41,358 nt of DNA, from positions 1-41,358 of the IMG/VR virus record IMGVR_UViG_3300023179_000217. One strand, written 5' to 3'. Numbering within the stretch: position 1 is the stretch's first letter; the number at the start of each line of letters is the position of its first letter. Source of the DNA: a virus. The notes under the pieces were generated by a model, which saw only the letters and a program-made list of their open reading frames with translations, was not told the origin of the DNA and made no database searches. The position numbers and the translations under genes are program-made. Positions 127-41,097 of this stretch are shown here, in pieces.

Positions 127-374
127 GGTTTCATCCTCTCCGGCGCTGGCGGTTCGATTGGGCATGGCCAGAGCAGAAGATCGCGCTGGAAGTGGAAGGC
201 GGGATCTGGATTCAGGGTCGGCATTCTCGCGGGGCTGGCATGGTCAAGGACATGGACAAATACAACACAGCGGCGACGTTGGGCTGGCGCGTGTTGCGCG
301 TCACGCCGAAGCAGATCGAGAACGGCGAGGCGCTGACGTGGGCGGCGGTGGCTCTGAAAGGCGAGGCGGCATGA
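54..374 (+). CDS. Small PD-(D/E)XK-like nuclease (DUF559/Vsr-like fold)
   Basis: 106 residues. The central FDWAW...KIALEVEGG stretch (about residues 34-50) gives the D...ExE pattern of small PD-(D/E)XK nucleases. The later segment with GW and RVLRVTP (about 77-86) resembles the closing strand of DUF559/Vsr-like folds. The gene lies between a zinc-ribbon gene and three methyltransferase genes, overlaps the Dam-type gene by 4 bases, and is duplicated in part at the right end of the window because of the circular overlap. It could be a junction or repair nuclease or a restriction partner of a methyltransferase; the sequence does not decide. The fold is a motif-level call. Confidence 0.6.
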   Translation: MARVSWPFDKLCDLAGVPVPVAEYRFHPLRRWRFDWAWPEQKIALEVEGGIWIQGRHSRGAGMVKDMDKYNTAATLGWRVLRVTPKQIENGEALTWAAVALKGEAA

Positions 375-964
375 GCGCACGTTTAACAATGGATACCGCC
401 GACTGGTATACGCCAGCGGTCTTTGTGGAGTCGGCGCGGCTGGTCATGGGGGCCATTGATCTTGATCCAGCCAGCCATCCAGAGGCCAATGAGCGCATCA
501 AGGCGGCGGCATTCTACACCGCCGAACAAGACGGCATTGGGCATGAATGGCGCGGTCGCGTGTTCCTAAATCCTCCGGGTGGCAAGCACCCGAGTGGCGG
601 AAGCCTCGTCAACGCCTTCTGGCGACACTTACTGCGTGAATACCTGGCGAGTCGCGTATCGCAAGCGGTTTGGATCGGCTATTCATTGGAGCAGCTCCAG
701 ACGCTACAGAATGCCGGAGCCGATTACACGCCGCTGTCGTTTCCTCTGTGCGTCACGCGCAACCGGATCGCGTTCATTGAAAACGCGGCGAAGCGCGAGG
801 CCCGGATCGCCAAGAAGCAGGCGGCGGGTAAGAGCACCAAAGACAGCGGCCCCACGCACAGCAATTACATCTGCTACCTCGGGCCAAACGTGCTGACGTT
901 CGCGCAGGAGTTTGGCAAGCACGGCGCAATCGTGTTGCCGGTTGGTTCGGTGGTGGCCGCATGA
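371..964 (+). CDS. dam: Phage DNA N6-adenine methyltransferase, Dam family
   Basis: 197 residues, starting at ATG 371, which overlaps the upstream stop; a longer upstream frame would only overlap the nuclease gene. The DWYTP segment near the N terminus, the IDLDPAS segment, and FLNPPGG around residue 67 (the NPPG/DPPY-type catalytic motif) are the signature of the phage Dam family (PF05869). It transfers a methyl group from SAM to adenine N6 in phage DNA, which can hide GATC-like sites from host restriction. It overlaps the next gene through ATGA, so the small genes here form a translationally coupled string. Confidence 0.85.
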   Translation: MSARLTMDTADWYTPAVFVESARLVMGAIDLDPASHPEANERIKAAAFYTAEQDGIGHEWRGRVFLNPPGGKHPSGGSLVNAFWRHLLREYLASRVSQAVWIGYSLEQLQTLQNAGADYTPLSFPLCVTRNRIAFIENAAKREARIAKKQAAGKSTKDSGPTHSNYICYLGPNVLTFAQEFGKHGAIVLPVGSVVAA

Positions 965-10454: not shown

Positions 10455-10684
10455 CGGTGGCCCAGTTGCGCGAGTTCCATCGGCGTCGGTTCTGTCAGTG
10501 CGGAGCCCGTGCCACTCGCGTGGTGGAAGGGCAGGGCTACTGCACGCGGCATCTGGCCAGGGCCGAGGACGCCGCAGCGGATAACGCCTTGCGCATGGAT
10601 TCGATGAAGGCCGCGCACGAGTTTGCCTTTGACAAACGGCGAAGCGTGACGCGGGATTACCGCTACTCGGCGAGGGTCCGGTGA
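10451..10684 (+). CDS. Small putative zinc-binding protein
   Basis: 77 residues from ATG 10451 (ATGA overlap with the head gene). RFCQCGARATRVVEGQGYC and the following TRH give a C-x-C...C-x-x-H arrangement near the N terminus that could bind zinc. The rest is basic and helical. Its stop overlaps the GTG of the next gene. Function unknown. Confidence 0.6.
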   Translation: MTVAQLREFHRRRFCQCGARATRVVEGQGYCTRHLARAEDAAADNALRMDSMKAAHEFAFDKRRSVTRDYRYSARVR

Positions 10685-11334
10685 GCGAGACGAACATTCT
10701 CGGGCGCATGCCGACCGGCGATCTGCGGGAAACCTGGAAGTATCCCCACGGTGATCCATCCGTGTCGCTGTTCACGCAAGCCGTGGAGCGGTGGGGTATG
10801 GCGCTGCGTGGCGGGGCGCGGGTGCTTGAGCTCGGATGCTGCGAGACGGACTTTCACGAGTGGTTCCGTCGTGCCCGTCCGGACTGCGAGCTGGTCGGCG
10901 TCGACGTGAATCTGATGTCCGGCTATCAGGGCGCGTTTTTCCACCAGTCGGCAGAATCGTGCGTGTTTGAGCCGGGGTTCTTCGATGCGGTGATCGCGCT
11001 CGGATCGATTGAGCACTTCGGGTTGGGCTTCTACGGCGACCCGATCAATGACACGGCCGACATGGAAGTGGTCGCGCTTGCGGAGCGGTGGTTGCGTCCG
11101 GGTGGGTGGTTCTACTGCGATGTGCCCTTTACGCCTGGCACGCACTACGTCACCGAGAACCGGCACTTTCGGGTCTATGACGACGAGACATTGCAGTCGC
11201 GGCTTGTGGGCGGCATGACGAGGGAGCGCCTCGCCTACGCGACGGGCGATACGGACATCTGGCACGACCAGCGGCCGGCGGCACCGATGGTGCCGTTCTG
11301 GTACGCCATTCAGCTTGCGCGAAAGGGGGTATAG
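10681..11334 (+). CDS. Class I SAM-dependent methyltransferase in the head module
   Basis: 217 residues from GTG 10681. Motif I is VLELGCCETDF (about 48-58), motif II contains LVGVDVN, and a later IALGSIEHFGLGFYGDPIND resembles DUF268-like methyltransferases linked to sugar or surface modification. No DNA target-recognition domain is present, so the substrate is more likely a sugar, protein or small molecule than DNA. It lies between minor head genes, 2.8 kb before a glycosyltransferase-methyltransferase fusion, and may act with it on virion glycans. That partnership is inferred. Confidence 0.72.
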   Translation: MSETNILGRMPTGDLRETWKYPHGDPSVSLFTQAVERWGMALRGGARVLELGCCETDFHEWFRRARPDCELVGVDVNLMSGYQGAFFHQSAESCVFEPGFFDAVIALGSIEHFGLGFYGDPINDTADMEVVALAERWLRPGGWFYCDVPFTPGTHYVTENRHFRVYDDETLQSRLVGGMTRERLAYATGDTDIWHDQRPAAPMVPFWYAIQLARKGV

Positions 11335-12779: not shown

Positions 12780-13937
12780 ATGGCCTTTACGGGTCTTGCG
12801 TCCAACGAACGGTTCACGGCGAACCAGGTCCGCGAAGACATTTCGCGCATCATCGCCACCCTGTCCCCGAAGGAAGTGCCGCTGCTCAACTGGCTCGGCG
12901 ATCCCGACACGTTCGCCCTGTCCACGAAGCACGAGTTCTTCGAGGACAACATGCTGCCGAACTACGTCGTTTCGTCCGTGGCGATTGCCTCGGCGACGGC
13001 GAACACCGGCATTCAGGTGAACGGTCAGGGCCTGTCCCTGACGGTCGGCACCCTGCTTGAGAACGAAACCGACACCACGAACACCACCCGCGAACTGATG
13101 CAGGTGGCCTCGGTGGTCGGCGCGAACTCCATCCTGGTCAAGCGCGGCTACGGCGGCACGGCGGTCGGCTCGCTGGCGGCTGGCGGTCAGCTCTACGTGC
13201 GGGCGATGGCCGGCATCGAAGGGCAGGATCACGACGGCTCGTCTGTGCGTGCGCTCGGCACGCGCCGCGCCAACACGGTCGGCTACTTCTACATCCCGGT
13301 GGCGGCGTCGGGCACCGACCTGGCGATCAACCTGGCGGGAAATGACAGCTACGACAACGTCATCCGCAAGGGCCTGATCGACGCGCTGCACCAGCTCGAG
13401 AAGGAAGTCGTCCGCGGCGTCCGCAACTCGACCAACTCGCTGGGCACCACGTCGGAAACCCGCACCATGCAGGGCATCCGCGAGCAGTTGACCACGATCA
13501 ACTCGCAGGTGACGGCGAGCTCGTTCGCGGCGAATCCCCACAAGTACATCGGGGATGCGTTCGAGAACATCTTCGCGCAGGGCGGATCGCCGGATACCGA
13601 GAGCTGGGGCATCATCGCCGGCTCGACGTTCTTCCGCAACATTTCCGACCTGAACGACACGAAGGTGCAGGACAGCAACCAATCGGAGCTGTTCCAGCGC
13701 GTGATCCGTCGTTACGTCGGCCCGCTCGGTGCGGCCGACGTGATCCTGTCGCGGGTCATCCCGTCGACGGAGTGCCTCATCGTCCCGCGTGAACGGCTCA
13801 AGGTCGTGCCGTTGCAGGGCCGCTCGTTCACCTACGAAGACCTGGGCAAGACGGGCGACAACGTGAAGGGCCAGATCGTGGGCGAATACTCCCTCGAGCT
13901 GTTCCATCAGAAGGCGATGGCGCGCATCCGCACCTAA
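12780..13937 (+). CDS. Major capsid protein (DUF5309/SU10-like HK97 fold)
   Basis: 385 residues, a normal size for this group. The N-terminal part LSPKEVPLLNWLGDPDTFAL (about 30-49) followed by a HEFFEDNMLPN segment is typical of the DUF5309/SU10 major capsid family. The C terminus has the strand-rich ending with ECLIVPRERLKVVPLQGRSF. It forms the icosahedral shell. Scaffold upstream and neck genes downstream support the call. A GC-rich hairpin follows the stop, and a large sugar-enzyme fusion gene follows soon after. Confidence 0.85.
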   Translation: MAFTGLASNERFTANQVREDISRIIATLSPKEVPLLNWLGDPDTFALSTKHEFFEDNMLPNYVVSSVAIASATANTGIQVNGQGLSLTVGTLLENETDTTNTTRELMQVASVVGANSILVKRGYGGTAVGSLAAGGQLYVRAMAGIEGQDHDGSSVRALGTRRANTVGYFYIPVAASGTDLAINLAGNDSYDNVIRKGLIDALHQLEKEVVRGVRNSTNSLGTTSETRTMQGIREQLTTINSQVTASSFAANPHKYIGDAFENIFAQGGSPDTESWGIIAGSTFFRNISDLNDTKVQDSNQSELFQRVIRRYVGPLGAADVILSRVIPSTECLIVPRERLKVVPLQGRSFTYEDLGKTGDNVKGQIVGEYSLELFHQKAMARIRT

Positions 13938-13950
13938 GCGCATGGGTGAT

Positions 13951-13977
13951 CGGGGCGGCCCGTATGTGGTCGCCCCG
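13951..13977 (+). terminator. GC-rich hairpin after the capsid gene
   Basis: CGGGGCGgCC (13951-13960) pairs with GGtCGCCCCG (13968-13977) around a 7-base loop, 13 bases after the capsid stop. No clear U-run follows, so it is better read as an attenuator or mRNA-stabilising element that keeps capsid message abundant. Confidence 0.5.
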
Positions 13978-14004
13978 GCCACTTTCAGAAAGGACACGAG
14001 TTCG

Positions 14005-14175
14005 ATGGACGAGACGGTGCAGCAAATCGCGCACTACCTGCGGGGCGGGAAGTTGGCCACGCGATCGCAAGACACGCGGGCCTGGGCGGAATACCTCGAC
14101 ACGGTGATTCAGCCGCAGTTGGCAGAGTTGGCGAACCGCAAGACCACGAAGGAGAAAGGTAAGGCGACGGCATGA
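14005..14175 (+). CDS. Small hypothetical protein
   Basis: 56 residues from ATG 14005. This start lies beyond the capsid hairpin, with AAAGGA about 11 bases upstream; a longer frame from 13942 would run through the hairpin. Helical and charged (QQIAHYLRGGKLATRSQDTR, AWAEYLDTVI). It overlaps the next start through ATGA and might be coupled to the glycosyltransferase fusion. Function unknown. Confidence 0.5.
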   Translation: MDETVQQIAHYLRGGKLATRSQDTRAWAEYLDTVIQPQLAELANRKTTKEKGKATA

Positions 14176-17138
14176 AGCTGACGTGGGCGTTCTACATCGA
14201 CAGCGTGGAGTTCACGCCGGCCGTGATTGCGGGCACTGCCTCGCTCGGCGGGTCGGAGTCTGCCTGTCTGGGCCTGATGCGGGCGCTGGTGGCCCGTGGC
14301 CATCGTGTGATCGCATTTACGACCAAGCTGCACCCGGAGGCGCTGCCGATCGACCATGCGGGCGTCCAGTGGTTGAGCGCCCATGAGATTGACGGCATGT
14401 CCCGCGTCGTGGACTTCGACGTGTTCGTGTCGCTGCGCATGCCCCATGTCTTCGCGCTTCCCGTCCGGGCCAAGTACCGGATGCTGTGGAACCAAGACTT
14501 GATGATCGGCGAGGAGCCGAAGAATTTCACGATGGCCCTGTCGTGGGCCTACGACGAAGTTGCCTACGTCAGCGAGTACCACCGGAAGCAGTGGGAAGGC
14601 TGCCTGCCTGAACTGGCCCCGATCGGCTGGGCGACGAAGAACGGCTACGACCCGGCCTATGTGCCGGTGGATGCGGTCAAGAACCCCAACCGGATCATTC
14701 ACGTCACGCGCCCGGAGCGCGGCTTGCGCCCCATCCTGGCCATGTGGCCGGAGCTGAAGCGCCGGTATCCGTCCGCCGAACTGCACCTATGCCGCTACAA
14801 CTCGATGTATGACGCCAGCGGATGGGGCCGCGTGTGCGCCAGCTACGACGATGCGGTGCAGGCGGTCAATGCCAAGGTTGGCGGGATCACTTACCTCGGC
14901 GAGCTGGGGAAAGCCGATCTCTACAAGGCCATCGCCGAAAGCGCGGTCATGTGGTACCCCGGAGTCGCCGACTTCGCGGAAACGTCGTGCATCGCGGCCA
15001 TCGAAGCGCAAGCGTGCGGCACGCCGTTCGTCGGCTCGTGGAAGGGCGCTCTGCCGGAGACCGTGCCGAACGGCATTCTGATCCAAGGTGATGCCGACCG
15101 GGACGAGGCGTATCACGAGCAGTCCATCGAAGCCGTGATCGACATGCTCGAGGGCTGCAAGACGCAGTCGTTCGACTACCGCATGCGCCAGAACGGTGGG
15201 CGGTATCACGTGCAACACGGCTACACCTTCGCGCAGCTTGCGGAAGAGTGGGAAAGCCACGTGATCGGCAAGTTCGACGCACGGCTGGCGGCGAAGGGCG
15301 ACCAGGTGCTGGCCCAGTTGCTGCACGAAGACGACCACGTCGCCGCGCAAGTGCTGGCCACGCGCCTCGGTAAGACCGACGTGGCGGACTTCTGCCAATA
15401 CGTCATCGACGGCAAGGATCAGACCTCGGACGACTACCAGGAGCGGGCAATGAACCCGCTGGAAGAGATCGGCTCGAACGAGCGCATCCCGTTCATTGCG
15501 GAAGCATTCAAGGACACCAAGCACGTCCTCGATCTGGCGTGCGGCAATGGCGCGATTGCCATCGGCATCGCCCAAGCCAATCCGAACCTGCGCGTGACTG
15601 GTATTGATTACGCCAAGGGCAACATCGACGCGGCCACGGAAGCGGCCAAGATTCTCGGCGTGTCGGATCGGGTGCGTTTCATCTGTGCGCCGGTCTACGA
15701 CTTCCAGAAGCACGAAGCGCATCAAGACCTGCTAGACATCGTGCCGGAACTGGCCAAGGTCGACGGCGTGTTTCTCGGGGAGTTCCTCGAGCACATTGCC
15801 AACGTGACCGGCTTCCTCGATACGGTGCATGGGCTGGTTGGCGTCGGCGCGACAGTCGTCTGCACCATGCCCTCGGGTCCGTTCGTGGAGTTGCGCGATC
15901 GCCGGATGGTGCTGAAGCGGGGCCACGTGCACCACTTCCGCCCGGATGATCTCCGGGCGCTGTTCGGCGCACAGGACACACCGTCGACGAAGTATCTGGA
16001 AGCGGGCCTGACCACGCGCTGGAATCCGGTCGGGACGTGGATGGTGACGTACACGACCAACGGTCAGCCGATGGGCCAGCGGCCCATTGAAGACCGCATC
16101 CGCACCATTCGCCCCATGAATCGGATGTCGGTCGGCATCATTGCCGGCGAGACCACCGATCTGCGGCGGTGCTTGTCGTCTATCTGGGCGGTCGCCGACG
16201 AAATCGTGATCGGCGATACCGGCTGTGACGAGCGCGATCTGATGGCCGTGGTCGCCGAGTTCCCGAACACCCGCGTGATCGAGATCGGTCCGGTGCACGG
16301 GCTGAAGGGCGGGTTCTCGGAGGCGCGGAATCGCACCTTGGACGCGGCGACGGGCGACTGGTTCTTCTGGCTGGACACCGACGAGGTGATCGTCAAGGCG
16401 GAATGCCTGCGGCGGTATCTGGACGGGTCGACGTTCCACGGCTACGCCATCAAACAGAACCACTTGATGTTGGACTCGCCCAAGATGTTCGACACGCCTG
16501 TGCGGTTGTTCCGCCGGATGCCGTCCATCCGCTTCTACGGGTGCATCCACGAGCAGCCACAGATGCACGACTGCAATGGCGACATTGCGCCGGCGCTGCA
16601 ATTGGCCGACGTGGAGATCGCGCACGTGCTCGGCTACCTGACGGAGACCATCCGTCGCCAGAAGTGTTTGCAGCGGAACTTGCCCCTGTTGGCCCGCGAT
16701 CAGGAAGTGTTCCCGGATCGTCGTCTGGGTAAGGTGCTGGTGATCCGCGACTTCCTGAACTTGGCGCAATGGGAAGTGGATGAGGCGGGCGGACGCATGA
16801 CGGACCGCGCCCGCCAGCGCATGCACATGGCGGTGGCCATGTTCGAGAAGCACTTCCCGGACCCCACGGACAAGTACCACACGCTGGCACGCCCGTTTTA
16901 CGAAGCGGCCCTGAAGCACGTCGACGGCGCGTTTGAAGTGGAGTTCTCCTTCGTGGCCCAGATGAACGGGCTGAAGGGACGCCCCAAGCCAGAGCGCGTG
17001 TGGCTGCGCACGCAAGACGACCTGAAGGCGTTCATGGCTGCGCGGGTCGCAGCCTGGACGAAGCCGATGACCCCGACCCCTGTCGACGTGACCCCGATAG
17101 ATCAGGCTCAGCCGGACGCCACCGGCGTGCCGGTGTAG
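14172..17138 (+). CDS. Glycosyltransferase (GT4-like) - methyltransferase - glycosyltransferase (GT2-like) fusion
   Basis: 988 residues in three parts. Residues about 1-370 form a GT-B/GT4-like enzyme, with SLGGSES near the start and an E-x7-E motif (ETSCIAAIE, about 270-278) that binds the nucleotide sugar. Residues about 440-645 form a class I SAM methyltransferase, with VLDLACGNGAIA near 451-462 and a FLGEFLEHI segment. Residues about 650-900 form a GT2/GT-A enzyme of the SunS-like type, with IGDTGCDE, EARNRTLDAATGDWFFWLDTDE (DxD near 734) and a C-terminal helical extension. The gene lies directly downstream of the capsid gene in the structural operon. It most likely builds a methylated glycan, plausibly on virion proteins; the substrate is not shown by the sequence. 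Confidence 0.88.
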   Translation: MKLTWAFYIDSVEFTPAVIAGTASLGGSESACLGLMRALVARGHRVIAFTTKLHPEALPIDHAGVQWLSAHEIDGMSRVVDFDVFVSLRMPHVFALPVRAKYRMLWNQDLMIGEEPKNFTMALSWAYDEVAYVSEYHRKQWEGCLPELAPIGWATKNGYDPAYVPVDAVKNPNRIIHVTRPERGLRPILAMWPELKRRYPSAELHLCRYNSMYDASGWGRVCASYDDAVQAVNAKVGGITYLGELGKADLYKAIAESAVMWYPGVADFAETSCIAAIEAQACGTPFVGSWKGALPETVPNGILIQGDADRDEAYHEQSIEAVIDMLEGCKTQSFDYRMRQNGGRYHVQHGYTFAQLAEEWESHVIGKFDARLAAKGDQVLAQLLHEDDHVAAQVLATRLGKTDVADFCQYVIDGKDQTSDDYQERAMNPLEEIGSNERIPFIAEAFKDTKHVLDLACGNGAIAIGIAQANPNLRVTGIDYAKGNIDAATEAAKILGVSDRVRFICAPVYDFQKHEAHQDLLDIVPELAKVDGVFLGEFLEHIANVTGFLDTVHGLVGVGATVVCTMPSGPFVELRDRRMVLKRGHVHHFRPDDLRALFGAQDTPSTKYLEAGLTTRWNPVGTWMVTYTTNGQPMGQRPIEDRIRTIRPMNRMSVGIIAGETTDLRRCLSSIWAVADEIVIGDTGCDERDLMAVVAEFPNTRVIEIGPVHGLKGGFSEARNRTLDAATGDWFFWLDTDEVIVKAECLRRYLDGSTFHGYAIKQNHLMLDSPKMFDTPVRLFRRMPSIRFYGCIHEQPQMHDCNGDIAPALQLADVEIAHVLGYLTETIRRQKCLQRNLPLLARDQEVFPDRRLGKVLVIRDFLNLAQWEVDEAGGRMTDRARQRMHMAVAMFEKHFPDPTDKYHTLARPFYEAALKHVDGAFEVEFSFVAQMNGLKGRPKPERVWLRTQDDLKAFMAARVAAWTKPMTPTPVDVTPIDQAQPDATGVPV

Positions 17139-17153
17139 GAGAGAAAAACCGCC

Positions 17154-17657
17154 ATGAAGCGTATCTGGATCGTTTGTGTTCTCGGCCTGCTGGTGGCCGC
17201 GCCGGTCTCGGCGCAGACCGTGCGTGTCGCGGGTTCGGATTCGGCCGGGGCCATGCAGCCGGTCGGCGTGACGGGCGACAGCTTGCGCACCGTCAGCGAC
17301 AGCGCCCAGCGGTTCCATTGCGTCGTGGCCGTGTCGACGGCGACCACCGTGCAGGCGGTCGGCGGGTCGTGCGTGGCACCGGGCGCGGGCCTGTCGCTCT
17401 ACATCACGGACATTTCGTTCGGCACGTCGGCGGCGGCGGGAGTCGCGGCGGATTCATTCCCCACGCTGAAGAGCGGCACGGGCGGCACGTGTGGGTCTGG
17501 CACGGCGGTGATCTGGCAGGGCTTGACGACGGCCAATTCGACGTTGGTGGATAACCGGACGATTCCGATCAAGGTCACAGCGAATTCCGAAATCTGCTGG
17601 ATCATGACGACCGCCGGTTCCAAAACCCTTCAGGTCAGCGGGTTTATCGCACCCTAA
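17154..17657 (+). CDS. Predicted secreted protein in the structural module
   Basis: 167 residues. The first about 21 residues (MKRIWIVCVLGLLVAAPVSA) form a clear Sec signal peptide with an AxA-type cleavage site. The mature part is rich in Ser, Thr, Gly and Val, beta-like, with four cysteines (FHCVV, GSCVA, GTCGSG, EICWI) that could form disulphides outside the cytoplasm. A signal peptide is unexpected for a phage structural gene. It may alter the host surface, act in superinfection exclusion, or be a virion surface protein in which the N terminus is not used for export. Confidence 0.68.
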   Translation: MKRIWIVCVLGLLVAAPVSAQTVRVAGSDSAGAMQPVGVTGDSLRTVSDSAQRFHCVVAVSTATTVQAVGGSCVAPGAGLSLYITDISFGTSAAAGVAADSFPTLKSGTGGTCGSGTAVIWQGLTTANSTLVDNRTIPIKVTANSEICWIMTTAGSKTLQVSGFIAP

Positions 17658-17662
17658 CCGTC

Positions 17663-18526
17663 ATGAGTTGGAACCCGAACGATCTCGTCTCGGACACCGA
17701 TCTGGCCGCCTACGAGCGGACCATCCTGACGCAATTCGGGGCCACGGAGTGGCAGTCGAAGCGGCAGAAGGCGCTCGAGGACTGGCTGTTTCCGCTGCTG
17801 GCCAGTGCGGGCCTTGATCCGTATCGCCTGCGCACGCGGGTGCAGCCCGATCAGGTGTGGGGCGTGACGAGCGGGGCGTATACCGACCTGACCAGCAAGG
17901 CCAAGGATCGGACCGCCGACGCGATCAGCCTGCACACCACGTTGGCGGCGTCTGGCGATTCGCTGTCGGTCGGGTCACGGTTCCAGTTCCGCGGGCTGTC
18001 CATTCGCATGCTGGACACGGTGAATGCCAACGCCTCGGCGCTGACCGCAGAGGTCTGGTGTGACGCCTGGTCAAGCGTAACCGTGTCGGATGGCACGGCG
18101 GCGACGGCCGGCAAGCCCTTCTCGAAGGGCGGGGCGATCACGTGGACGGTGCCCGAGAACTGGGTCACGCGGCCCCTGAACAACTCGAACGACTTCTACT
18201 TCGCCCGGTTGCGCGTGGCGTCGGCGCTGACTACGTCGACCAAGTGCGGACAGATCAGCGTGATCAAGCGGTCGGCGCTCTGTGCCGCGGCCACGCTCCG
18301 CACCTTGGCCTACATCTTCCACGAAGCCCCCACGCAACAGGATGGGCCTTGGAAAGAGAAGGCCGACTGGTACGAGCAGGAAGCCCAGCATGCCTGGGAG
18401 CGGGTCTTGCCGATCATCGGGCGCGAATTTGATACGGACACGGTGGACGACGTGATCGACGCGACGGAAGCCACGCAGACGACGGACACGGCCAGCGGCG
18501 GCGGCTGGACATGGGACCGCTGCTGA
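17663..18526 (+). CDS. Putative neck / head-tail connector protein
   Basis: 287 residues. The helical N-terminal part DLAAYERTILTQFGATEWQS, then ALEDWLFPLL, and the C-terminal helical part (LCAAATLRTLAYIFHEAPTQ, WYEQEAQHAWERV) frame a central beta-rich insert (about 95-190). Helical ends of this type occur in head-tail adaptors of siphoviruses, and the gene lies between capsid and tail genes. The central insert resembles an Ig- or jelly-roll-like module that could be exposed on the neck. The assignment is mainly positional. Confidence 0.55.
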   Translation: MSWNPNDLVSDTDLAAYERTILTQFGATEWQSKRQKALEDWLFPLLASAGLDPYRLRTRVQPDQVWGVTSGAYTDLTSKAKDRTADAISLHTTLAASGDSLSVGSRFQFRGLSIRMLDTVNANASALTAEVWCDAWSSVTVSDGTAATAGKPFSKGGAITWTVPENWVTRPLNNSNDFYFARLRVASALTTSTKCGQISVIKRSALCAAATLRTLAYIFHEAPTQQDGPWKEKADWYEQEAQHAWERVLPIIGREFDTDTVDDVIDATEATQTTDTASGGGWTWDRC

Positions 18527-18966: not shown

Positions 18967-20031
18967 ATGAGCGGATTTACCGGACGCGAAGCGAAGATCG
19001 CGTTCGCCAAGTTCGCCGTAGGGAGCTGGAACGCAGCCGCGTCCGTTACGAAGGGCGCGTTCTTCCAGTCGGACGGCGGGCTGACCTTCCAGCCGAACCG
19101 CGTGAACGATGACGCCTTTGGTCAGGCGTTCATGGGGGACGGTGATCTCGGGGATGTCAACGCCCCCGATGTGACCTTCACGGGCCGCGATCGCTACGGT
19201 GATTACGGGTTCGTGTGGGAAGCCCTGGCGATGGGATCGCCGGCGGCGGTGACGCTGTCGAGTTCCGCATCGGGGCAGGTGACGAGCTGGAAGCACGTCA
19301 TTGATCTGGCCCCGTCGATTGACGGGCTGGGCCTGACGCTGGCCATCGACAAAGTGCTGTATGTCGATGAGCTGACCTCAGCCAAGGTCTACGGCTTCTC
19401 GCTGCAACCCGGCGACGGCGGCGTGATGGACAAGAGCTTCAAGGTGCTCGGGTCCAAGGCGACGAACATCTCGAGCATTAACACGCGCTCGACCGTGAAC
19501 GGGGCGGTCTATCCGGCGCTGTCGGATCGGGTGTTCCGCAAGCACGGCACGTTCCGCCTGAACAAGCAGAGCGCGGGCTCGCTGGGCTCGTCCGATGTGG
19601 TGGCGATTGAATCCTTCTCGCACGAGTTCGAGCGTCCGCAGGATGCCCCGCACGTGTTCGGGCAGGACTACGTCTACGAACCCGGGGACAACGGCTTCCC
19701 GACTGTCAAGGTGTCGGTGAGCTACCCCCGCATGTCCACGATCAGCGCGAACTCGCTGTATCAGGCGCTGCGCGACGATCCGCAGTGGAAGGCCGACATG
19801 ACCTTCGCGGGCGGCTACATCAATTCCACCGATCAACTGACGGAGAAATACGAGTATCCCGCGTTGGAACTCGATGAGTTCTCCGCCCCGTTGACTGGCG
19901 CGAACCAGGTCAAGCCGACCGCGACGTTCACGGCGAAGATGGCCGTGAGTTCGCCCAGCGGCATGGCCTTTGTCAACCCGTTCCGTCTCACGCGCATCAT
20001 GCCGCAGTCGCTGAGCGCGTTCGCGGTCTAG
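18967..20031 (+). CDS. Major tail tube protein
   Basis: 354 residues, larger than the simplest tail tube proteins. Strand-rich throughout, with GREAKIAFAKFAVGSWNAAA at the N terminus, a hinge-like KVYGFSLQPGDGGVMDKSFK segment in the middle and a C-terminal beta part. Position before the tail chaperone and tape measure genes identifies it as the tube subunit. A strong terminator-like hairpin follows, so its message can be made in excess. The length suggests an extra outward-facing domain. Confidence 0.75.
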   Translation: MSGFTGREAKIAFAKFAVGSWNAAASVTKGAFFQSDGGLTFQPNRVNDDAFGQAFMGDGDLGDVNAPDVTFTGRDRYGDYGFVWEALAMGSPAAVTLSSSASGQVTSWKHVIDLAPSIDGLGLTLAIDKVLYVDELTSAKVYGFSLQPGDGGVMDKSFKVLGSKATNISSINTRSTVNGAVYPALSDRVFRKHGTFRLNKQSAGSLGSSDVVAIESFSHEFERPQDAPHVFGQDYVYEPGDNGFPTVKVSVSYPRMSTISANSLYQALRDDPQWKADMTFAGGYINSTDQLTEKYEYPALELDEFSAPLTGANQVKPTATFTAKMAVSSPSGMAFVNPFRLTRIMPQSLSAFAV

Positions 20032-39770: not shown

Positions 39771-40171
39771 CACAACCAGGTTTCGACTTTCACGCGCCAG
39801 TCGTGCCGTTGCCTCCGCTGATGCAGGCGGACGAATCCGAGCAGACGGTGAGCCGTCAGCGGGTCTTTGACTGCCTCGTTCGGGCTGGTGAGCGAGGGTT
39901 GTCCACGCCGGAACTCATCACGCAGAGCCGCACCTATGCGGCCCCGCGTCGAGTGTGGGAGCTGGCGAACTTCTACGGCTACGTGATCCTTGGCGAGAAG
40001 CGCGGGCGGAATGCGTGGCACTGGACGTTTGTGCGGTCGGAGCCGTGGGCGCGGCCGGCCGTGATGCCGTGGCGCATGGCGAAGAAGCAGGAAGCGGATC
40101 GCGTGTCCGCGAATCGTGATCGCTTGGGCCTCTCCGAGCAGGGGCGTCAGGTGTGGGAGCAGAGCCGATGA
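39767..40171 (+). CDS. Putative helix-turn-helix protein
   Basis: 134 residues from ATG 39767. VSRQRVFDCLVRAGERGLST, then PELITQSRTYAAPRRVWELA, suggests an HTH domain with a following WHWTFV strand, as in short phage proteins near replication genes. It overlaps the methyltransferase gene by ATGA. Function unknown. Confidence 0.55.
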   Translation: MTQPGFDFHAPVVPLPPLMQADESEQTVSRQRVFDCLVRAGERGLSTPELITQSRTYAAPRRVWELANFYGYVILGEKRGRNAWHWTFVRSEPWARPAVMPWRMAKKQEADRVSANRDRLGLSEQGRQVWEQSR

Positions 40172-41097
40172 GCCTTCAGGCTCCCTTTCCGTGGTTTGGC
40201 GGCAAACGCAAAGTCGCGGCGGAAGTGTGGCGGCGGTTCGGTGACGTGCGGAATTACGTCGAGCCGTTTTTTGGTTCCGGGGCCGTGCTGCTCGGTCGCC
40301 CGCAGCCGTTTGAGGGCAACGAGACGATCAACGACGCGGACGGCTTTGTAGCGAACTTCTGGCGGGCTGTGCAAGCCGATCCGGAGGCGACCGCGCACCA
40401 CGCCGACAACCCCGTCAACGAGAACGACCTGCACGCCCGCCATGCGTGGTTGGTGGGTCAGATTGAGGACTTGCGGGCGCGGTTAGAGGGCGATCCGGAT
40501 TACTTCGACGCCAAGATCGCGGGTTGGTGGGTGTGGGGCGTGTCGTGTTGGATTGGTAGCGGGTTCGGTTCTGGTCAAGGTCCGTGGCGCGTCGTGAGCC
40601 GGCAACTGGTGCACTTGGGCAGCAACGGCCAAGGCGTGAACCGGAAACGGGAACACGGAGACGCGCTTGCGGATTGGTTTGTATTGCTATCCGAACGACT
40701 GCGATCGGTGCGCGTGGCGTCCGGTGACTGGTCGCGTGTTTGCGGCCCTAGCGTGACACACAAGCACGGCGTGACGGCGGTGTTTCTCGATCCGCCCTAC
40801 GCGGATACAGCGCAGCGTAGTAAAGACCTGTATCGCGTGGATTGCCTCCAGGTCGCCCACGAAGTACGGGCGTGGGCGATTGAACAAGGCCGGCGTGACG
40901 ACATGCGGATCGCGCTATGCGGGTACGAAGGCGAGCACGACATGCCAGAGACATGGCAGGTGCTGCAGTGGTCAGCCGGGGAAGGGTTTGGCGGGCAGGC
41001 GGATGAGCGCACAGGCAACGGCAAGCGTGAGCGGATTTGGTTTTCGCCTGCGTGCCTGAACGAGCAGCCAGCCCTGCCGATGGGGTTTTCAAAATGA
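40168..41097 (+). CDS. D12-class DNA adenine N6 methyltransferase
   Basis: 309 residues from ATG 40168. FPWFGGKRKVAAEVWRRFGD (about 7-26) is the SAM-binding start of D12-type enzymes, VEPFFGSGAVLL follows, and FLDPPYADT (Asp near 208) is the catalytic DPPY. The insertion between them forms the target-recognition part. It methylates adenine in phage DNA. Together with the Dam- and C5-type genes across the circle junction it forms a cluster of three DNA methyltransferases. Confidence 0.9.
   Translation: MSLQAPFPWFGGKRKVAAEVWRRFGDVRNYVEPFFGSGAVLLGRPQPFEGNETINDADGFVANFWRAVQADPEATAHHADNPVNENDLHARHAWLVGQIEDLRARLEGDPDYFDAKIAGWWVWGVSCWIGSGFGSGQGPWRVVSRQLVHLGSNGQGVNRKREHGDALADWFVLLSERLRSVRVASGDWSRVCGPSVTHKHGVTAVFLDPPYADTAQRSKDLYRVDCLQVAHEVRAWAIEQGRRDDMRIALCGYEGEHDMPETWQVLQWSAGEGFGGQADERTGNGKRERIWFSPACLNEQPALPMGFSK

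Follow-up and report, generated by a model that had tools for sequence, protein, structure and literature searches.

The open reading frame at positions 14172 to 17138 of the IMG/VR virus record IMGVR_UViG_3300023179_000217 (41,358 bases, analysed over its whole length and hereafter called the window) codes for a single polypeptide in which a GT4 glycosyltransferase, a methyltransferase and a GT2 glycosyltransferase are fused, and it behaves as a core head-module gene of an uncultured SU10-type phage lineage. Judged from sequence comparisons and structure models, the enzyme probably glycosylates virion proteins in this lineage, its acceptor being predicted. The most likely product would be a short glycan, O-methylated and carried by a virion protein, with the major capsid protein as the first candidate acceptor.

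Domain architecture and fold of the enzyme

The following parts of the enzyme gene were distinguished.

14172..17138, plus strand: predicted GT4-methyltransferase-GT2 trifunctional enzyme, a single open frame from ATG to stop, 988 amino acids
14172..15281, plus strand: GT4 domain (approximately amino acids 1-370) with E270-x7-E278; Pfam Glyco_trans_1_4, fold matches to tll1591, MshA and AviGT4
15477..16091, plus strand: SAM-methyltransferase domain (approximately amino acids 436-640) with an LDLACGNG motif; Pfam Methyltransf_31/23 and PDB profile matches
16116..16715, plus strand: GT2 domain (approximately amino acids 649-848) with DTDE and HEQ motifs; PDB profile search and Foldseek match to ThuS (4.9e-15)
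16716..17135, plus strand: C-terminal helical region and conserved tail; secondary structure of the model, conserved W-x-R

All three domains were recognised by Pfam above the curated cut-offs, with Glyco_trans_1_4 at amino acids 182-308 (1.8e-7), Methyltransf_31/23 at approximately 438-600 (approximately 1e-10) and Glycos_transf_2 at 662-748 (1.9e-6). The first domain has the GT-B fold and the E-x7-E motif (E270/E278) of family GT4, and the last has the GT-A fold and the DXD motif of family GT2, here D735-T-D737 followed by E738. The middle domain combines the family profile of class I SAM methyltransferases with their glycine-rich motif I and the acidic residue after strand 2. An AlphaFold model built from an alignment of 31 sequences had a pLDDT of 90.7 and a pTM of 0.87, and was used instead of an earlier model from 8 sequences, which was poor in the GT2 part. 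The original prediction of one 988-residue chain holding a GT4-like enzyme with E-x7-E, a SAM methyltransferase and a GT2-like enzyme with DTD was thus borne out by Pfam, by motifs invariant among the relatives and by a confident model. No transmembrane segment was found in the enzyme (maximum KD19 1.45), which is predicted to be soluble. A viral structure library contained other multi-domain sugar-transfer proteins from uncultured phages and giant viruses, none of which gave a good superposition on the model from end to end.

In a family-profile search of the PDB, the GT2 domain matched GmaR (1e-33), SunS (1e-22) and ThuS (7msk, 1e-21), with chondroitin synthase, a polysaccharide synthase, far behind (8e-11). 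ThuS and SunS were also among the best PDB fold matches to the GT2 part of the model, the fold alignments with relatives of the GmaR/SunS/ThuS type having approximately 20 % identity. By both sequence and fold the GT2 domain is thus closest, among the solved structures, to protein and peptide glycosyltransferases. The GT2 family cd02511 of CDD also includes LPS-core glucosyltransferases, which is a point against reading this affinity as proof of a protein acceptor. GmaR moves GlcNAc onto flagellin (PMC9638930). The partner domains of GmaR, SunS and ThuS differ from those of the fusion. The NCBIfam SunS model (TIGR04195) was matched by all 31 relatives, but with 30.7 bits against a cut-off of 350 the enzyme is not a SunS equivalog. 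Among the best PDB profile matches to the methyltransferase domain were 3bus, 3mgg and 6uv6, the last being a D-glucose O-methyltransferase (4e-12), and the GT4 part of the model matched the folds of the GT-B enzymes tll1591, MshA and AviGT4.

Relatives, conservation and selection

Relatives of the enzyme were found at 39 loci in two IMG/VR searches, to which one contig of a Xanthobacteraceae metagenome-assembled genome (MAG) was added (70 % identity). The three domains are kept in all full-length relatives, and E270, E278, D454, C457-G458-x-G460, D479, D735, D737, E738, H793 and E794 are invariant in the 31 that are full-length and non-redundant; in two loci (L009 and L010) the first aspartate motif of the GT2 domain is altered. 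Since the dN/dS between relatives was approximately 0.04-0.23 and the motif residues are invariant, the gene is real and under purifying selection. No relative spanning 80 % of the protein was found in annotated phage records. In a search of bacterial genomes the fusion was found only in the one MAG contig, which is syntenic with the window (1-41,358) and is therefore probably phage sequence, and among the matches listed from 298 bacterial genomes of the same order, all except this contig were single-domain proteins. The fusion was the sole GT2-family gene in 17 of the 18 virus records searched; the exception (L088, record G016) has three further GT2-family genes.

Linkage of the enzyme gene to the major capsid gene

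Upstream of the enzyme lie, in this order, the genes for terminase, portal, scaffold and the SU10-type major capsid protein, and downstream of it structural-region genes follow as far as a tape measure protein. The following are referred to here.

12780..13937, plus strand: major capsid protein, 385 amino acids, SU10-type, the proposed acceptor; PHROG 1328 major head protein (1.6e-31) and Pfam SU10_MCP (2.6e-44)
17663..18526, plus strand: conserved structural-region gene (287 amino acids) downstream of the enzyme, which it follows in nearly all loci that are long enough
18967..20031, plus strand: conserved structural-region gene (354 amino acids)

Because loci fetched with the enzyme are biased towards its presence, the survey of IMG/VR was restarted from the capsid protein. 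Wherever a capsid relative had 37 % identity or more and the sequence ran far enough downstream, the fusion was present, at 0.2-1.1 kb from the end of the capsid gene and flanked by portal, scaffold and later structural genes. On the strength of this survey, the idea of a passenger gene of sporadic occurrence was rejected. At approximately 28-33 % capsid identity the fusion was present in three loci (L094, L099 and L100) and missing in many, so it is not required for SU10 capsids as such; in the more distant relatives without it, domain profiles detected no replacement in those scanned, within the DNA retrieved around the capsid gene. In the cultured Sporosarcina phage Lietuvens, a distant capsid relative, the capsid gene is not followed by such a gene. 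Nor is adjacency absolute: in L034 and L038, two divergent loci that the search with the enzyme had brought up, the enzyme gene lies approximately 9.6 kb and 2 kb, respectively, away from the capsid match. Several large genes without Pfam matches precede the enzyme gene in L034, and no further sugar genes were found among the extra genes scanned in these two loci.

Pairwise distances of the enzyme and the capsid protein were correlated with r = 0.92 over 325 pairs (0.89 for a shared set of 18 loci). On the larger sets this is no lower than the correlations between the capsid and the further structural proteins examined, and physical linkage by itself could contribute to it. With this co-divergence and the near-fixed linkage, the enzyme gene behaves like a core gene of the head module of the lineage. 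Virion-glycosylation systems of phages have a phage-encoded glycosyltransferase, as is the case here, where it is in addition linked to structural genes; other late functions would, however, fit a place in a late operon as well. Two further genes were noted. The gene at 10681-11334, also of methyltransferase type (DUF268/Methyltransf_23) and inside the head-gene block, has relatives only in L039 and L040, where they lie at other places, and the gene at 17154-17657, right after the enzyme, codes for a protein of 167 amino acids with a signal-peptide-like N-terminus and no detected relative in the other loci.

Surface-modifying phage genes are usually sporadic in their occurrence, and surface glycans are commonly built by GT4 and GT2 enzymes. 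One such late function would be the alteration of a host surface glycan, LPS core or capsule, which would block superinfection or the readsorption of progeny to debris, and phage glycosyltransferases that change the host serotype are known (PMC12619734). We consider this unlikely, since the place of the enzyme within the head block is fixed, since it co-diverges with the capsid, and since the best relatives of its GT2 domain have proteins as substrates. Serotype-converting gtr systems, moreover, have a membrane-embedded glycosyltransferase with GtrA/GtrB partners, while the enzyme is without a membrane segment and no GtrA/B-like partner was found among the scanned genes of the window.

The region between the capsid and enzyme genes

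The 234 nt from the capsid stop (13937) to the start of the enzyme gene hold two elements.

13944..13984, plus strand: hairpin immediately behind the capsid stop, with a strong stem in most relatives
14005..14175, plus strand: small open reading frame, 56 amino acids, with helical motifs and a basic tail; homologue at the same place in most relatives

The hairpin had a mean z of -2.3 over 41 loci (mononucleotide shuffles) and was weak or absent in some of them, and its stems are alike across relatives though built from differing sequences. A scan for promoters and terminators gave nothing, the hairpin not being scored as a classical terminator; it is possibly an attenuator or an RNA-processing element between the two genes. 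The original prediction had placed the enzyme directly after the capsid gene, in the structural operon, and made with the capsid. The identity of the capsid gene, the close spacing, the position in the head-gene block and the near-fixed linkage uphold much of this, but a hairpin and a small gene intervene, and the hairpin may reduce the expression of the genes downstream.

The small ORF is mostly 54-65 amino acids long in the loci that have one, and has 63 % identity with its counterpart in L015 (dN 0.33, dS 1.28), which indicates purifying selection. Its TGA overlaps the ATG of the enzyme as ATGA in the window, coupling the two genes translationally, and in several relatives the C-terminus is a basic, AT-hook-like tail (GPGRPRK); the product may be an adaptor or may bind nucleic acid.

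SunS and ThuS, two of the nearest solved relatives of the GT2 domain, act on small peptides encoded next to them, and the conserved, translationally coupled small ORF could be read as a glycocin-like arrangement of this kind. That the acceptor is this 56-amino-acid protein, or else a different protein of the virion or one of the host, appears improbable. The small proteins have no conserved Cys of the type that SunS modifies in its nearby peptide, visual inspection showed no clearly conserved Ser/Thr site in them, and in L094 and L099 the enzyme starts 6 nt after the capsid gene with no small ORF between.

The basic tail of the coupled protein, AT-hook-like in some relatives, together with three DNA methyltransferase-type genes in the window (158-964, 1122-2399 and 40153-41097), would also fit an enzyme that glycosylates phage DNA against restriction, and phages with DNA glycosyltransferases are known (PMC12619734). 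Such a role is nevertheless highly unlikely, as the enzyme is linked to head genes and its GT2 affinity is to protein glycosyltransferases. No thymidylate-synthase-type hydroxymethylase, which would supply hydroxymethylated bases, was found in 19 records (18 virus records and the MAG), and this result, with the fusion as the only GT2 gene in nearly all records, weighs against DNA glycosylation.

Predicted role in virion glycosylation

For the favoured role, glycosylation of a virion protein, we infer the order of action, the type of linkage, the acceptor and the presence of a glycan on the virion as follows. A freshly synthesised structural protein, most probably the major capsid protein, would receive its first sugar on Ser/Thr from the GT2 domain. 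The GT4 domain would attach a second sugar, and the methyltransferase domain would O-methylate the short glycan, with donor sugar nucleotides and SAM supplied by the host. Such a decoration may serve protection, surface properties, particle stability or adhesion. No conserved Cys was found in the capsid protein; should this protein be the acceptor, an O-linkage is therefore likelier than an S-linkage, and the idea of an S-glycosylated capsid was dropped on the same ground. The two-sugar, methylated virion modification that was originally proposed is plausible in view of the affinity of the GT2 domain to protein glycosyltransferases, the capsid linkage and the co-divergence, with a predicted acceptor, putative sugars and a presumed location on the virion. 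The further proposal that the glycan shields virions from antibodies found no support, as nothing links these phages to an animal host and the sole host hint is the contig of a relative in the Xanthobacteraceae MAG.

Virion glycosylation in phages is so far known from a handful of cultured phages. If the predicted role is true, glycosylated capsids can be a trait of a lineage rather than an accessory, across a broad uncultured lineage, and the enzyme would provide a compact, testable system of capsid glycosylation, parallel to the capsid glycan enzymes of the chloroviruses.

Comparison with known systems

Virion glycosylation by phage-encoded enzymes has been described for the phages Che8, Corndog and Myrna, as summarised in PMC12363180 (citing Freeman 2023), where Che8 gp110 and Corndog gp38 are given as glycosylating capsid and tail-tube proteins; their likeness to the fusion is functional. 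In Maravista, a relative of Che8, glycosyltransferase genes are situated towards the 3' end of the genome (PMC11256854). These mycobacteriophage systems belong to different phages, and the descriptions of them in the relevant parts of PMC12363180 and PMC11256854 do not include a fused methyltransferase.

The locus of the uncultured podovirus ctKR88 (MW202524; L131, 1656-11978) resembles the window in carrying an SU10-type capsid gene, a small hypothetical gene, a GT2/GT4 fusion, another GT4 gene and methyltransferases, but its fusion has the order GT2-TPR-GT4 and its methyltransferases are separate genes. Given this different order and the low identity of the capsids (approximately 24 % over part of the length), it seems that more than one event of origin or reshuffling has placed sugar genes downstream of SU10 capsids.

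The enzyme would work most like A064R of the chlorovirus PBCV-1, the closest working analogue, the analogy being one of function only. A064R likewise unites two glycosyltransferases and a methyltransferase in one viral chain, and according to the account in PMC7826918 (citing Speciale 2020) these build the end of the capsid glycan, so that the glycan of the major capsid protein is extended and O-methylated. Unlike the fusion, A064R comes from a eukaryotic algal virus, has the order GT-GT-MT in 638 amino acids and elongates an existing N-glycan. It is conceivable, though doubtful, that the coupled small protein serves as an adaptor for the enzyme, which puts a complete O-methylated disaccharide on the capsid protein throughout the lineage, as an obligatory one-gene system in bacterial viruses that resembles the chlorovirus type.
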